Of a DNA stretch of 64,000 nucleotides, positions 13,301 to 19,168 are shown piece by piece. Position numbers and translations under genes: made by a program. The notes beneath the pieces are model-generated. The model was not told where the DNA came from, ran no database searches, and saw only the letters and a program-made list of their open reading frames with translations. Source of the DNA: Gemmatimonadota bacterium (GTDB lineage Bacteria; Gemmatimonadota; Gemmatimonadetes; Gemmatimonadales; Gemmatimonadaceae); NCBI GenBank assembly GCA_027307165.1, contig DAHUXM010000013.1, positions 1-64,000 on the forward strand, read 5' to 3'. The stretch's first letter is position 1, and every line of letters starts with the position of its first letter.

Positions 13301-13442
13301 GTGACCGCGGGTCGCGTCGTTGGGATACGACCCGCGCCAATGGATGTCCGACGCATCCGCGCATCGCGCGGCCGCCGAACGTAATCGGCCGTGCGCGGAT
13401 CCCACCGCAAACCCATTCCCGCGCCGTCGTGACCAACCCGGC

Positions 13443-15788
13443 ATGGTAGCAGCTGCACTGCTGATCTTCGCACAGGTCACCGTCACCGTCACGAGTGGCA
13501 AGACTTCCCACGCCGACAGCGTCAAGCGTGCGAAGGAGCTCGCACACCAGGACTCCATGGCGGTGCGCATGGATTCCATTCGCGAAGCTCGCGATTCGTT
13601 CCACGTGAAACGCCGCGAAGCGCGCCACATCGACGTCACGCCGCAGCTCCTCGCGACTGCGTTCAAGGATGCCGCCGCACGCACTCTGCTCGATCGCGCG
13701 CGCGCCGCGAGATTCACGCAGGACTCTGCGCTCAAGTCATACGACGCCACCACCTACGAGCGTCTTTCGGTCAATTCCAAGATCACGAGCCTCGGCCGCG
13801 ACCGCTTGTTGTTCCGCACCGAGCGCGCAACGCGTATCAGATGGGAGCGCGGCAACGGTGCGCTCGTCGACATCACCGGCGCGCGATCCGCACTCCCGAT
13901 GTTCAAGGGGGCAGGCAAGGCCGACGTCGACCTCGGCGCAGGCAGTGTTCCGATTCCATACTATCCCGGCCGCGAAACTCTCTGGATCGGCTCCGAAGTC
14001 GCAAAGGCCGACGCTGATGCGAACGCGCTGATCCATCCACTCGGCAACGGCGCCGAGGCGTACTACACGTACGAGAGCGGTGATTCGGTTTCGTTCCAGC
14101 TGCCGGGCGGGAAGACGATCCTCGTGCGCGAGCTGCGCGTGCAACCACGCACGTCGAGCTGGAACCTGGTAGTAGGATCGCTCTGGTTCGACGTCGCTAC
14201 AGGACAGCTCGTGCGCGGCGTGTATCGCATGGCCGAGCCGATGAACATGATGTCAGTTGCAAAGGAAGAAGACGGCGAGGATCCGGAGACGGAGATACCC
14301 GGCTGGATCAAGCCGATGATTCTCCCCATGACGGGCGGCATCGACGTGATGACAGTCGATTACGGACTGTACGAGGGCCGCTTCTGGCTGCCGCGCATGC
14401 AGACCGCAGAAGGAAAGGCGCGCGCCGGAATCATGCGCTTTCCGTTCGAGCTGCGCCAGCGCTTCGATTTCGAGTCCGTCAACGCAGATCTCAAGATTCC
14501 CACGATTCAACTCACCGCACTCGACACCGCGCACGGCATCGATGCGCGCAGGGAGCGTCGTGCGATGCGCGACAGCTCGTGTGCGAACGGCGGAACGTAC
14601 CGCATGACCAATCGCACGTCGCACGAGAACTCGGTCAACATGCTGGTCCGCGTTCCGTGTGACACAACTTCGCTCGCGACTTCTGCGACTCTTCCGAAAT
14701 CCATCTACGACAAACCCGACTCGCTCTTCGGCGACGCTGACATCGACGCACTCGTCGCGAACGCGCTGTCGCTCAAGCGTCAGGCCGGAGGCGCGGGCTT
14801 TTCGCCGCCGGTCGTGCAATACGGACTTCCATACACGCGCTACAATCGCATCGAGGGATTGTCGACCGGTCTCCGCGTCGACGACGACATGGGCAGCGGT
14901 TACGCCAGTCACGCGATCGCGCGACTGGGATTCGATCTCTCGCCCAACGGCGAACTCGGCATCGCGCGCACCAACGGCCGCGAGACTTACGGCGTCAACG
15001 CGTATCGCAGGCTCAATTCCGCGAACGATCTCGGACGCGATCCATTTAGTCTGAGCTCCTCGCTGTCCGCGTTGATGTTCGGCCGAGACGACGGCGTGTA
15101 TTACAGATCGTGGGGCGCGGAGCTGGTGCACGATCAGGAAGAAGGATTGCTCAGCAGCTGGCGTCTCTTCGGCGAGCAGGAGTTCGGTGCGCGCACCAGG
15201 ACCCACTTCTCACTCGGCGGCAAGCTCGGCGGCGGCTACTTCCCGGACAACATCGACGTGGAGAAGGGAAGCGTCGTCGGACTGTCGCTGCTGAAGCACG
15301 GATCGCATGGCGAGGATCCGGACGGACTTCGGCTCTTCTCCAACCTCCGTCTCGATGGAGCCGCCGGCACCTTCGATTACACCCGTGGCATGGCCGACGT
15401 CACCGTGATGCATCCGCTCGCCGGTCCCGTCACTGCGGCACTCACGCTGAGCGGAGGAACGTCGGGCGGGCACGTCCCCGTGCAGCGGCTCTGGTATCTC
15501 GGCGGCACGTCCACCGTGCGCGGCCAGGACGTCGGCGCCGTGGTCGGCGATGCCTACTGGCTCTCGCGCCTCGAGCTCGGCCTGGGCAGCGTCTTCGCCA
15601 AACCCGTCATCTTCGGCGACCTCGGCTGGGCCGGCGACCGGCACAGCTGGAACGAGGGGGTGGTCCCCGTGAGCGGGGCCGGCATAGGGGGATCCTTCAT
15701 GGACGGGCTGATCAGGCTCGATCTGGCCAAGGGTATCCGCCCCCGGGGTGGGGTCCAGGCCAGCCTGTATCTGGACGCCCGCTTCTAG
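13443..15788 (+). CDS. Omp85/BamA-like surface antigen, outer-membrane beta-barrel
   Basis: About 781 aa. The first ~20 residues (MVAAALLIFAQVTVTVTSG) act as a signal peptide. The N-terminal ~430 residues are soluble (RFTQDSALKSYDATTYERLSV, VGSLWFDVATGQLVRGVYRM), resembling the DUF5686-like front part of such proteins rather than POTRA repeats. The C-terminal ~350 residues alternate in barrel fashion, contain LWYLGGTSTVRGQ (the V-R-G signature of Omp85 strands), and end in LYLDARF with a terminal Phe as outer-membrane barrels do. The ATG at 13443 replaces a longer frame from 13320 that crosses the duplicated terminator. It may assemble or secrete surface proteins. Confidence 0.82.
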   Translation: MVAAALLIFAQVTVTVTSGKTSHADSVKRAKELAHQDSMAVRMDSIREARDSFHVKRREARHIDVTPQLLATAFKDAAARTLLDRARAARFTQDSALKSYDATTYERLSVNSKITSLGRDRLLFRTERATRIRWERGNGALVDITGARSALPMFKGAGKADVDLGAGSVPIPYYPGRETLWIGSEVAKADADANALIHPLGNGAEAYYTYESGDSVSFQLPGGKTILVRELRVQPRTSSWNLVVGSLWFDVATGQLVRGVYRMAEPMNMMSVAKEEDGEDPETEIPGWIKPMILPMTGGIDVMTVDYGLYEGRFWLPRMQTAEGKARAGIMRFPFELRQRFDFESVNADLKIPTIQLTALDTAHGIDARRERRAMRDSSCANGGTYRMTNRTSHENSVNMLVRVPCDTTSLATSATLPKSIYDKPDSLFGDADIDALVANALSLKRQAGGAGFSPPVVQYGLPYTRYNRIEGLSTGLRVDDDMGSGYASHAIARLGFDLSPNGELGIARTNGRETYGVNAYRRLNSANDLGRDPFSLSSSLSALMFGRDDGVYYRSWGAELVHDQEEGLLSSWRLFGEQEFGARTRTHFSLGGKLGGGYFPDNIDVEKGSVVGLSLLKHGSHGEDPDGLRLFSNLRLDGAAGTFDYTRGMADVTVMHPLAGPVTAALTLSGGTSGGHVPVQRLWYLGGTSTVRGQDVGAVVGDAYWLSRLELGLGSVFAKPVIFGDLGWAGDRHSWNEGVVPVSGAGIGGSFMDGLIRLDLAKGIRPRGGVQASLYLDARF

Positions 15789-15846
15789 ATAGGTTAACCT
15801 CAATAGCTGTATTGGAAGTGCCGCAGCCCAACACCCAGAGGACCGT

Positions 15847-16068
15847 ATCTCCAAAGAAGATCTGATCGAGCTCGAAGGGACCGTCACCGAAGTCCTTCCG
15901 AGCACGTCGTTCCGCGTGACCCTCGATAACGGAGCAGCCGTCCTGGCGACCATCGCAGGCAAGCTCCGCCGCTTTCGCATTCGAATCCTCGAAGGCGACC
16001 GCGTGACTGTAGAGGTGTCGCCCTATGACCTCACGCGCGGACGCATAACGTACCGACATAAGGCCTGA
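15847..16068 (+). CDS. infA: Translation initiation factor IF-1, apparent ATC start
   Basis: From 15847 the frame reads [16 protein letters not shown], then [37 protein letters not shown] and [11 protein letters not shown], stop at 16066-16068. This is IF-1 along its whole 73-residue length. IF-1 binds the 30S A site during initiation. The in-frame stop upstream is TAG at 15790, and no ATG, GTG or TTG lies between it and the conserved core. The codon aligned with the usual start is ATC, with a Shine-Dalgarno-like AGAGGA four nt upstream (15837-15842). ATT at 15811 is the only other candidate of that type and lacks such a site. A base error at 15849 would also explain it. Confidence 0.88.
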
Positions 16069-16161
16069 CCCGCGCGCCGCGGTCCACGGACCGCGATTGG
16101 ATTGAACACCACCGCCTTGCCCCGTCGCGTCGCCCCCAACACCAATGGTACGCATGCGTAG

Positions 16162-16181
16162 GGCGCGGATGTATCCGCGCC
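16162..16181. repeat. Dispersed palindrome GGCGCGGAT-GT-ATCCGCGCC
   Basis: Nine-bp arms around GT. The same 20-mer followed by TGGTCCC recurs at 52432-52451, and both copies are preceded by a similar TACGCA-(T/C)-GCGTA motif, so it is a dispersed element. A related palindrome, GGCACGGATGCATCCGTGCC, is at 16379-16398. Confidence 0.8.
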
Positions 16182-16320
16182 TGGTCCCGTTCGGCGCGAT
16201 CGGAATTGGTGAAATGCGACGTATCCGCGCCTGGCCCCATTCGGCGCGATCGGAATCGGATGAAATCCGACGCGCCCCCGCCTGGCCCCATTCGGCGCGA
16301 TCGGAATCGGATGAAATGCG
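16171..16320. repeat. Three tandem ~50-bp repeats downstream of IF-1
   Basis: Units at 16171-16220, 16221-16271 and 16272-16320 share CGCCTGG(T/C)CCC, TTCGGCGCGATCGGAAT and G(G)TGAAAT. Together with the palindromes at 16162 and 16379 they fill most of the 16069-16507 gap, in which I see no gene. Confidence 0.8.
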
Positions 16321-16507
16321 GGTTTGTCGCACGCCGTCATCGCGCGGTAATCGGGGTTCGATTGAACATTCAGTGACAGGCACGGATGCATCCGTGCCCC
16401 ACATTCGCGGGGCTTCGGGTACGCCTGCAACGTGATGGCGTTGAAGCAATCGTCAGCTGTGCATCCCTGCCTTCGGCGCGGATGACGACCGTTCGCGGTA
16501 ACGCCCG

Positions 16508-19168
16508 CTATTCCGCTCTCAGCGCGCGATTGGGATCCAGCCTCGCCGCGCGCCACGCTGGTACACCGCACGCGATCATCGCCACCGCACCCAGCGTGAC
16601 AACCACTGCCAGATAGGTCGTTGCGTCGAGCCGCGATACGCCGAACAGCATCGACACGATTGCGCGAGTCGCTGCGACAGAAGCTGCTAGTCCGATCGCG
16701 AGTCCGAGCGCGGTGAGCCTCATCCCCTGGCCGAGCACGAGCGTGAGAATGCTCTCCGGTGACGCACCCAGCGCCGCTCGAATTCCGATTTCACGCACCT
16801 TCTCCGTGACGCTGGACGAGAGAACGCCGTAGATGCCGACGGCGGCCAGCACCAGCGCAACCATTCCGAACGCTTCGAACAGGATGAGAGCGAAGCGACG
16901 ATCGGCAACGGATCTGCCCACCAGATCATCCATCGTCGCGACGCGGACTATTGGCTGGTTCCTGTCGACGGAGTGGATCGCGTTCCGCACCATGGGAACG
17001 AGCGCCGCTGCATTGCCATTCGTGCGCACCACGAGCGACATGCGATTGTCCACCCAGTGCCACTGCGTCGGCGTGAGGTATATCGCGTCGGTCTCTCCAT
17101 CCGCCAGCGACGATTGCTTCACGTCGCCGACGACTCCGACGATCGTGTAGAGACGTCCATCCGAAGGACCGAAGCCGAGCCGCTTCCCGATGGGATCCTC
17201 GTGCGGGAATTCACGCTTGGCGAACGATTCGTTGATGAGTGCCGCGCGTGGCGCACCGGCACGATCCTCGGCGCCCAGCAATCGCCCGTGCAGTAGCGGA
17301 ATGCGCATCGTCGCGAAGTACGAAGGCGTCACGGCATATCTGAGCGCCGAGCCGGTGGCGTTCGCGTTGGGATCGTTCTCGAACTGCACACTGTAACCGT
17401 CGAAATCGCCGCTCAACGGCAACTGACTGGTAAATGCGGCAGCTGTTACACCGGGTATCTGCTGTACCGCGCCGAGCGCCTCGGCGAAGAACTCGTATCT
17501 GGCACTGTCCCCGGCGGCGCTGTCCTGCTGGAAACGGTGACCCGACTCCTGTACCTGCATCGTGAGCACGTGCGACGGATCGAAGCCGACATTTACTGCG
17601 AGGAGAGTCCTGACGCTCCGAAGCAGCAGTCCGGCGCCGATCAGCAGCACGACCGCGAGCGCGACTTCGGTGACGACGAGTGCCTTGCGCGTGGCTTGAT
17701 GGCCGCCGGTCGTACGCTGCGACGCCTGCTGCATTCCGAGATTGAGTTCCTCGCGCGATGCACGCAATGCCGGTATCACGCCAACCGACAGACCGACAAG
17801 TGTCGTTACCACCAGGCCGAACGCGAACACGGCGGCATCCAGTCGAATCACGCCGACGCGTGGAAGTCCGGTGGGGCTGAGCGCCACCAGCGCACGCACG
17901 CCGAGCTCGGCGACGATCATGCCCAGCGCACCGCCAACGATTGCCAGCAGAAGACTCTCGGTCAGCAACTGCTGCGTCAGTCGTGTTCGTCTCGCGCCCA
18001 GCGCGGACCGCATCGCGAACTCGCCGCGCCGCCGCGCGCTGCTTGCGAGCAGCAGGTTGGTGACGTTGGCGCACGCTATCAACAGCACGAGGATGACGGC
18101 GCCGAGTACCGCAAGGAGGACAGGCCGCACGCCACTGGTCACGTCATCCTGAAGCGAGTGGACCAGCAATCCGCTCTTGAGTGATGCCCAGGGGACGCGC
18201 GGAAAGTCGCTTCGTGGCGTTCGCGCAATCGCGCTCAGCTCGTCTCTCGCCTGCGTCAAGCCGACACCGGCGCGCATCCGTCCTATCATGCGCAGATGAT
18301 GTCCCCACTCGCGGCTATCCGGCCCGAACACCGTGCTGTATTGCAGCGGTGCCCATATCTGCACCGACGGCGCAAGAACGTTCTCGAATGTCGCAGGCAT
18401 CACGCCGATTACGACGTAATCATCGTCGTCCAGTTTTACCGAGTGGCCGATTATGTCGCGATCGCCGGAGAAGCGACGATGCCACAGTGCGTTGCCAAGG
18501 ATCACCACGCGCGGCCCGCCGGCTCTGTCATCCGCGGCTGTGAAATTCCGTCCCAGCATCGGCGACATGCCGAGCACGCGAAAGTAATCTCCGCTCACGC
18601 GCTGTCCGTCCAGTCGGTCCGGATCGGCGCGGCCGACCAGTGTTGGTTGCCACGTATTCACGACAGCCATGGCATCGAACGAGTGGCTTCGTTGCAGGAG
18701 CTCGCGATACGTACCGAACGTCACGTCCAGCGGCGCGCCGTCGGCGCCCATGTCCGATATCATCGTGATTCGCTTCGCGCCGGGGTAGGGCAGCGACTCG
18801 AACAGAATGGGATTCACCGCGCTGAAGATCGCAGTGCTCGCGCCGATGCCGATTGCAAGTGTGAAGACCGTGACGATGGTGACGCCCGGATTACCGCGGA
18901 ACCGGCGGAACGCGTAGCGCACGTCGGCAAGCATCGTCTCGACGGCGTTCTCCCAGCCGTACCCGCGGACCTGTTCTCGCACGTTTGTTACTCCGCCCAC
19001 CTCGATTCGTGCGGCGCGCAGCGCTTCGTCAGGAGACAGCCCGCGGGCGAGGTGTGCTGCGCGCGCGTTCTCGAGATAGTCGTCTACTTCGTCGGCGACG
19101 TTCCGATCGGTGGCGGCGCGATTGGTGAGCGCCTGCAGGCCGCGAGTGAGCTGACGCAGGAGCGACAT
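16508..19168 (-). CDS. ADOP-family ABC permease (MacB/FtsX type)
   Basis: An 886-aa permease. The first ~85 residues are the soluble ADOP leader (DRNVADEVDDYLENARAAHLARGLSPDEALRAARIEVGG). A membrane helix follows (VTIVTVFTLAIGIGASTAIFSAV), then a MacB-type periplasmic domain (residues ~125-340), an FtsX block (VLLAVLGAVILVLLIACANVTNLLL and next helices), a second periplasmic domain and a last FtsX block (LGLAIGLAASVAATRAIVSMLFGVS). Such permeases act in mechanotransmission-type export, usually with an ATPase encoded elsewhere. The PadR gene 4 nt upstream almost certainly regulates it. Confidence 0.92.
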   Translation of the reverse strand: MSLLRQLTRGLQALTNRAATDRNVADEVDDYLENARAAHLARGLSPDEALRAARIEVGGVTNVREQVRGYGWENAVETMLADVRYAFRRFRGNPGVTIVTVFTLAIGIGASTAIFSAVNPILFESLPYPGAKRITMISDMGADGAPLDVTFGTYRELLQRSHSFDAMAVVNTWQPTLVGRADPDRLDGQRVSGDYFRVLGMSPMLGRNFTAADDRAGGPRVVILGNALWHRRFSGDRDIIGHSVKLDDDDYVVIGVMPATFENVLAPSVQIWAPLQYSTVFGPDSREWGHHLRMIGRMRAGVGLTQARDELSAIARTPRSDFPRVPWASLKSGLLVHSLQDDVTSGVRPVLLAVLGAVILVLLIACANVTNLLLASSARRRGEFAMRSALGARRTRLTQQLLTESLLLAIVGGALGMIVAELGVRALVALSPTGLPRVGVIRLDAAVFAFGLVVTTLVGLSVGVIPALRASREELNLGMQQASQRTTGGHQATRKALVVTEVALAVVLLIGAGLLLRSVRTLLAVNVGFDPSHVLTMQVQESGHRFQQDSAAGDSARYEFFAEALGAVQQIPGVTAAAFTSQLPLSGDFDGYSVQFENDPNANATGSALRYAVTPSYFATMRIPLLHGRLLGAEDRAGAPRAALINESFAKREFPHEDPIGKRLGFGPSDGRLYTIVGVVGDVKQSSLADGETDAIYLTPTQWHWVDNRMSLVVRTNGNAAALVPMVRNAIHSVDRNQPIVRVATMDDLVGRSVADRRFALILFEAFGMVALVLAAVGIYGVLSSSVTEKVREIGIRAALGASPESILTLVLGQGMRLTALGLAIGLAASVAATRAIVSMLFGVSRLDATTYLAVVVTLGAVAMIACGVPAWRAARLDPNRALRAE

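Follow-up and report, generated by a model that had tools for sequence, protein, structure and literature searches.

The infA gene (IF-1) in the 64,000-nt stretch of Gemmatimonadota DNA analyzed here, which we call the window, lacks an ATG, GTG or TTG start, and sequence comparison strongly supports AUC as its start codon: the codon is kept in the genus, occupies the position at which other infA genes have ATG and stands at a normal distance from a Shine-Dalgarno (SD) site. The infA frame runs on the forward strand from 15790 to 16068, bounded by an in-frame TAG (15790–15792) and by the stop codon TGA (16066–16068). Reading the in-frame codons between this TAG and the IF-1 core revealed no ATG, GTG or TTG; the first standard codon in the frame, GTG at 15916, lies inside the conserved domain and therefore cannot start a whole IF-1. 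Counted from the proposed start codon, ATC at 15847–15849, the gene (15847–16068, forward strand) has 73 codons. It is preceded by the SD-like motif AGAGGA (15837–15842), separated from the ATC by the 4 nt CCGT (15843–15846). Measured from the GAGG core (15838–15841), which is invariant within the genus, the spacer is 5 nt, a normal SD distance. The first-pass annotation of this DNA had placed the frame without a standard start, and the ATC behind AGAGGA, at the same positions. The eIF-1a profile of Pfam (PF01176) spans residues 7–70 of the 73 with 86.3 bits (1.1e-24; cut-off 30.2), and this frame is its single match in the organism's own genome, an assembly of 37 contigs that is 98.2% complete.

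Upstream of infA, an open reading frame on the same strand extends from a mechanically assigned start at 13320 to 15788. Its stop codon (15786–15788) lies 58 nt before the ATC, and its C-terminal part shows a weak likeness to ShlB/FhaC (PF03865, 26.5 bits; Pfam cut-off 22.7). Just 3' of infA, at 16160–16311, a 51-nt direct repeat occurs three times (76–100% alike, spacing 50–51), and downstream a MacB/FtsX-like ABC permease gene (16508–19168) lies on the reverse strand, convergent with infA.

All four genomes of the genus that were examined have ATC at the infA start position, with diverged DNA around it; two of the genus records, L006 and L007, are the Gemmatimonadetes metagenome assemblies fen_1247 and palsa_1236. 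The infA leader varies among the four by substitutions and indels, and in G003 the upstream frame differs from that in the other sequences; in none of the four is there an in-frame ATG, GTG or TTG between the upstream stop and the ATC. The IF-1 protein is identical in the four genomes (0 amino-acid differences over 73 codons), with 11–32 synonymous codon differences per genome pair, and the PF01176 profile found one infA match in each. Judged by these substitutions, infA of the genus is intact and under purifying selection. The first-pass annotation had also considered a base error or a silenced paralogue. Alignment of the relatives at the start codon, giving ATC in all four genus genomes examined, excludes the former, and a single copy without amino-acid changes despite up to 32 synonymous codon differences refutes the latter. 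Between L006 and L007, synonymous differences in infA number 0 in codons 1–20 and 28 in codons 21–73; between the window and L006 they number 3 and 29, respectively. With so few near the start, the start region of infA is kept at the nucleotide level. In the four sequences 15782–15801 and 15837–15860 are invariant in 44/44 columns (20/20 and 24/24), while 27–41 of the 44 columns between them are alike per pair and 132–152 of 161 in the remainder of infA.

Elsewhere in the family the start is standard: a reading of 50 infA start regions from outside the genus, with a small number of genomes represented twice, gave 45 ATG and 5 GTG or TTG. PF01176 matched in 167 of the 179 family genomes. For the 12 without a match (G018, G022, G031, G033, G037, G058, G059, G068, G080, G087, G111, and G176), two of which reach at least 90% completeness with no more than 5% contamination, either missing contigs or a diverged infA would be the explanation. 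A pattern for NTH starts, tried first on the window, was run over 395 Gemmatimonadota genomes and matched in 7, with a non-standard infA start only in the four genus members; its core fits 103 of 194 infA rows, so further cases may be missed. The match in G115 was set aside as an IF-1 gene with an ATG one codon later, and those in G502 and G530 as a common short frame unrelated to IF-1. The AUC start of infA looks like a derived trait of the genus.

Four Acidobacteriota genomes likewise have an infA without a standard start, with ATC in its place. Among the best 80 loci listed, two (L008 and L009, titled Acidobacteria/Acidobacteriota) carry ATC at the start of infA. In the family of the L009 genome, where 16 of 18 genomes were matched, the starts were ATC in 3, TTG in 12, and ATG in 1. 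In G179, G180, and G200, which carry the ATC, it follows AAGGAGG or AAAGGAGG at a distance of 8 nt. G180, which is also L009, has a standard codon in frame at least 66 codons upstream of the ATC; such a codon was not found upstream in G200 or in G179, whose contig ends soon upstream. In G942, which belongs to a second Acidobacteriota family, infA shows AAGGAG-ATAGCC-ATC and no standard codon in frame; six relatives of G942 start infA with TTG (3), ATG (2), or an ambiguous codon (1). Pattern search of 396 Acidobacteriota genomes matched in 11, of which G180 and G942 are IF-1; the remaining 9 of the 11 matches were each read individually and discarded as other frames.

In the Acidimicrobiia genomes read, CTG was the most frequent codon at the infA start position. 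Among the best 80 loci listed, six Actinomycetota have CTG there, four of them titled Acidimicrobium, Acidimicrobiaceae, or Ilumatobacteraceae; the class of the L058 genome is presumably Acidimicrobiia. Profile search of 13 genomes, including L008, L009, and the six Actinomycetota, found one infA in each. Within the class, PF01176 matched in 142 of 148 genomes, 5 of which had two matches. A sample of 90 different genomes, made up of the best 30 and 60 others chosen down the list, gave CTG in 46, GTA in 3, ATC in 2, and GTT and GTC in 1 each, next to the standard codons TTG (20), GTG (11), and ATG (6). The CTG count is manual; a script counted 47, as it adds two genes with CTG before an ATG and omits L221, in which the CTG start lies further upstream. 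The IF-1 N-terminus of L221 has a short, partly repeated extra stretch after the CTG (PKTKELKTKEEA). Under a loose rule, 45 of the 46 CTG starts are preceded by an SD-like tetramer. Reading upstream in frame as far as a stop, no ATG, GTG or TTG occurs in 20 of the 46, and in 26 a standard codon in frame upstream is a formal rival start. The two ATC cases, L267 and L268, are ambiguous, with ATG or TTG four codons upstream; L269 has ATG in place of their ATC.

Neighboring genes served as controls. At 36 Acidimicrobiia loci (a few genomes occurring twice), the recognized starts of rpmJ were GTG (18), ATG (13), and TTG (2), and those of rpsM were ATG (31) and GTG (1); CTG was found in 0 of these 65 starts (33 rpmJ and 32 rpsM). 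All four genus genomes have GTG as the start of rpmJ and ATG as that of rpsM. As the starts of rpmJ and rpsM are standard, the odd starts go with infA and not with the genes beside it. An IF3 profile search identified infC in three of the four genus genomes, with two copies in G002. The infC start region in G000, G002, and G003 reads CGAGG-TTTTGCTC-ATC-CCC, from which infC of the genus probably starts with ATC; a TTG two codons before this ATC, with 2 nt between it and GAGG, is a less likely start. The second, different infC of G002 (L165, G002:C63:55077-55334), which may come from a contaminant, has ATT at the likely start behind GGAG.

In the IF-1 tree (104 rows and 73 columns, few columns for this number of rows), the genus is placed with five rows from Acidobacteriota, of which four have ATC and one (L132) has ATG, at a support of 88/72, which is below the tool's star. 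The Acidimicrobiia form one group (99/97) apart from the genus. Transfer of infA together with its start codon, giving the ATC of the genus and of the Acidobacteriota one origin, is possible; the sure minimum number of origins of the odd starts is therefore two.

We consider it fairly probable that this infA is a working single-copy gene translated from AUC and that the codon is kept as a regulatory feedback sensed by initiation factors, as in infC. According to the review PMC4611024, AUG, GUG, and UUG owe their canonical status to being spared by IF3, which discriminates against other triplets, and IF1 acts jointly with IF3 in securing fidelity, mostly when the 50S subunit docks. Passages of PMC5472188 describe infC as starting with ATT in E. 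coli and with ATC in Streptomyces, as autoregulated through its start codon, and as a gene to which gene finders assign the wrong start in most Streptomyces. In the proposed mechanism, initiator tRNA would read the AUC at 15847 as fMet, and IF3, helped by IF1, would reject AUC complexes; with IF1 and IF3 plentiful, translation of infA would be low, and with both short it would rise. By analogy with infC, AUC-started infA probably responds to IF1 and/or IF3 through such a feedback; IF3 alone could be the discriminator, and the sensing of IF1 itself is what we infer. Translational self-control, suggested in the first-pass annotation, thus stays plausible, strengthened by the recurrence of non-standard infA starts elsewhere, while the regulatory step would follow from the analogy.

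Some observations weigh against a feedback. With ATG in 45 and GTG or TTG in 5 of the 50 family regions outside the genus, IF-1 generally needs no such start. UUG and GUG, which are common on infA elsewhere, escape IF3 discrimination (PMC4611024, in the sections concerned), and in 26 of the 46 CTG cases, in L009/G180, in L267, and in L268 the infA frame has a standard codon further upstream. AUC might instead be a fixed low-rate start, a weak codon that keeps IF-1 output low without feedback from IF1 or IF3, which we regard as unlikely, though worth serious consideration. Plastid infA starts with UUG, and changing this codon to AUG raised translation 300-fold, as reported in part of PMC9845219. 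TTG in 12 of the 16 genomes of one Acidobacteriota family and TTG or GTG in 31 of the 90 Acidimicrobiia suggest a general pressure for a weak start on infA. For a low rate, however, UUG, GUG, or a poorer SD site would suffice, and AUC and CUG fall outside the set of triplets that IF3 tolerates according to PMC4611024 in those sections.

It is improbable that expression is set mainly by the leader, through a hairpin that masks the SD and AUC until ribosomes completing the upstream gene open it, with the odd codon adding tightness. The predicted fold pairs a candidate 5' arm (15782–15801, forward strand) with a candidate 3' arm (15838–15859, forward strand) that comprises the SD, the AUC, and the first codons, both of which initiation signals it would hide. 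The same pairing is predicted in all four genus sequences, both arms fall within the 44 invariant columns while the loop varies, and the 5' arm contains the stop codon of the upstream gene, which makes translational coupling conceivable. No compensatory change was found among the four sequences, however, and the stability is at background level (z -1.77; 10 of 200 shuffles as good), so that the hairpin was dropped as main evidence. As well paired were 43 of 5000 arm shuffles and, with the 3' arm, 356 of 12796 20-mers of the window, and an upstream duplex as strong occurred at 56% of 3000 random window positions. Because the palindrome AGGTTAACCT lies within it, the invariant 5' arm may alternatively have been conserved as a DNA site. 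An Rfam search of 15300–16600 with E up to 1 gave no match.

We give very little credence to a start elsewhere, be it at CTG 15862, at an odd upstream codon, or by frameshift from the upstream gene. All four sequences retain this CTG in the infA frame, but a start there would lose SKED, which is kept in the IF-1 of other bacteria. Upstream, ATT at 15811 varies, being ACT or ATC in relatives, G003 has another upstream frame, and a frameshift is barred by the stops at 15786 and 15790. A base error or a dead paralogue has next to no probability, even though both named genus records are metagenome assemblies, as four diverged genomes agree, a second infA was not found, and the protein is unchanged.

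Among known systems, infC of E. coli and Streptomyces is alike in being an initiation-factor gene with a non-NTG start behind an SD site and a product that acts in fidelity (PMC5472188 and PMC4611024, in the passages on these points). It is a different gene for a different factor, and IF3 autocontrol is known there, whereas a feedback on infA would be deduced by analogy; moreover, IF1 acts mostly at 50S docking, as part of PMC4611024 describes. Streptomyces sigR, with a GTC start repressed by IF3, is another regulatory non-standard start missed by gene finders (PMC5472188, in part); sigR, however, encodes a sigma factor without self-control via ribosome fidelity, and infA an initiation factor. 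Plastid infA (Chlorella, tobacco) shares a weak start, UUG, that limits output (PMC9845219, in the part dealing with this codon), but UUG is standard and not discriminated against by IF3 according to sections of PMC4611024, unlike AUC here.

The lack of a standard start on infA is thus real and kept, and it extends further than the first-pass annotation could show; the regulatory reading is likely. In the literature listings and paper passages searched, bacterial infA was not found described with an AUC or CUG start. A 2020 survey by Gvozdjak and Samanta (arXiv:2008.10758) may list infA. It is quite possible, if short of probable, that infA is a recurrent seat of start-codon sensing beside infC in three phyla, with IF1 titrating its own synthesis via ribosome fidelity; this would cover AUC in the Gemmatimonadota genus and some Acidobacteriota, and CUG, rarely GUA, GUU or GUC, in much of Acidimicrobiia. 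Of the three initiation factors, IF3 (infC) is the one for which self-control through the start codon is established. A conserved AUC or CUG start of infA, if true, would extend infC-type self-control to IF1, and gene finders limited to ATG, GTG, and TTG would miss or mis-start the essential infA in whole lineages.
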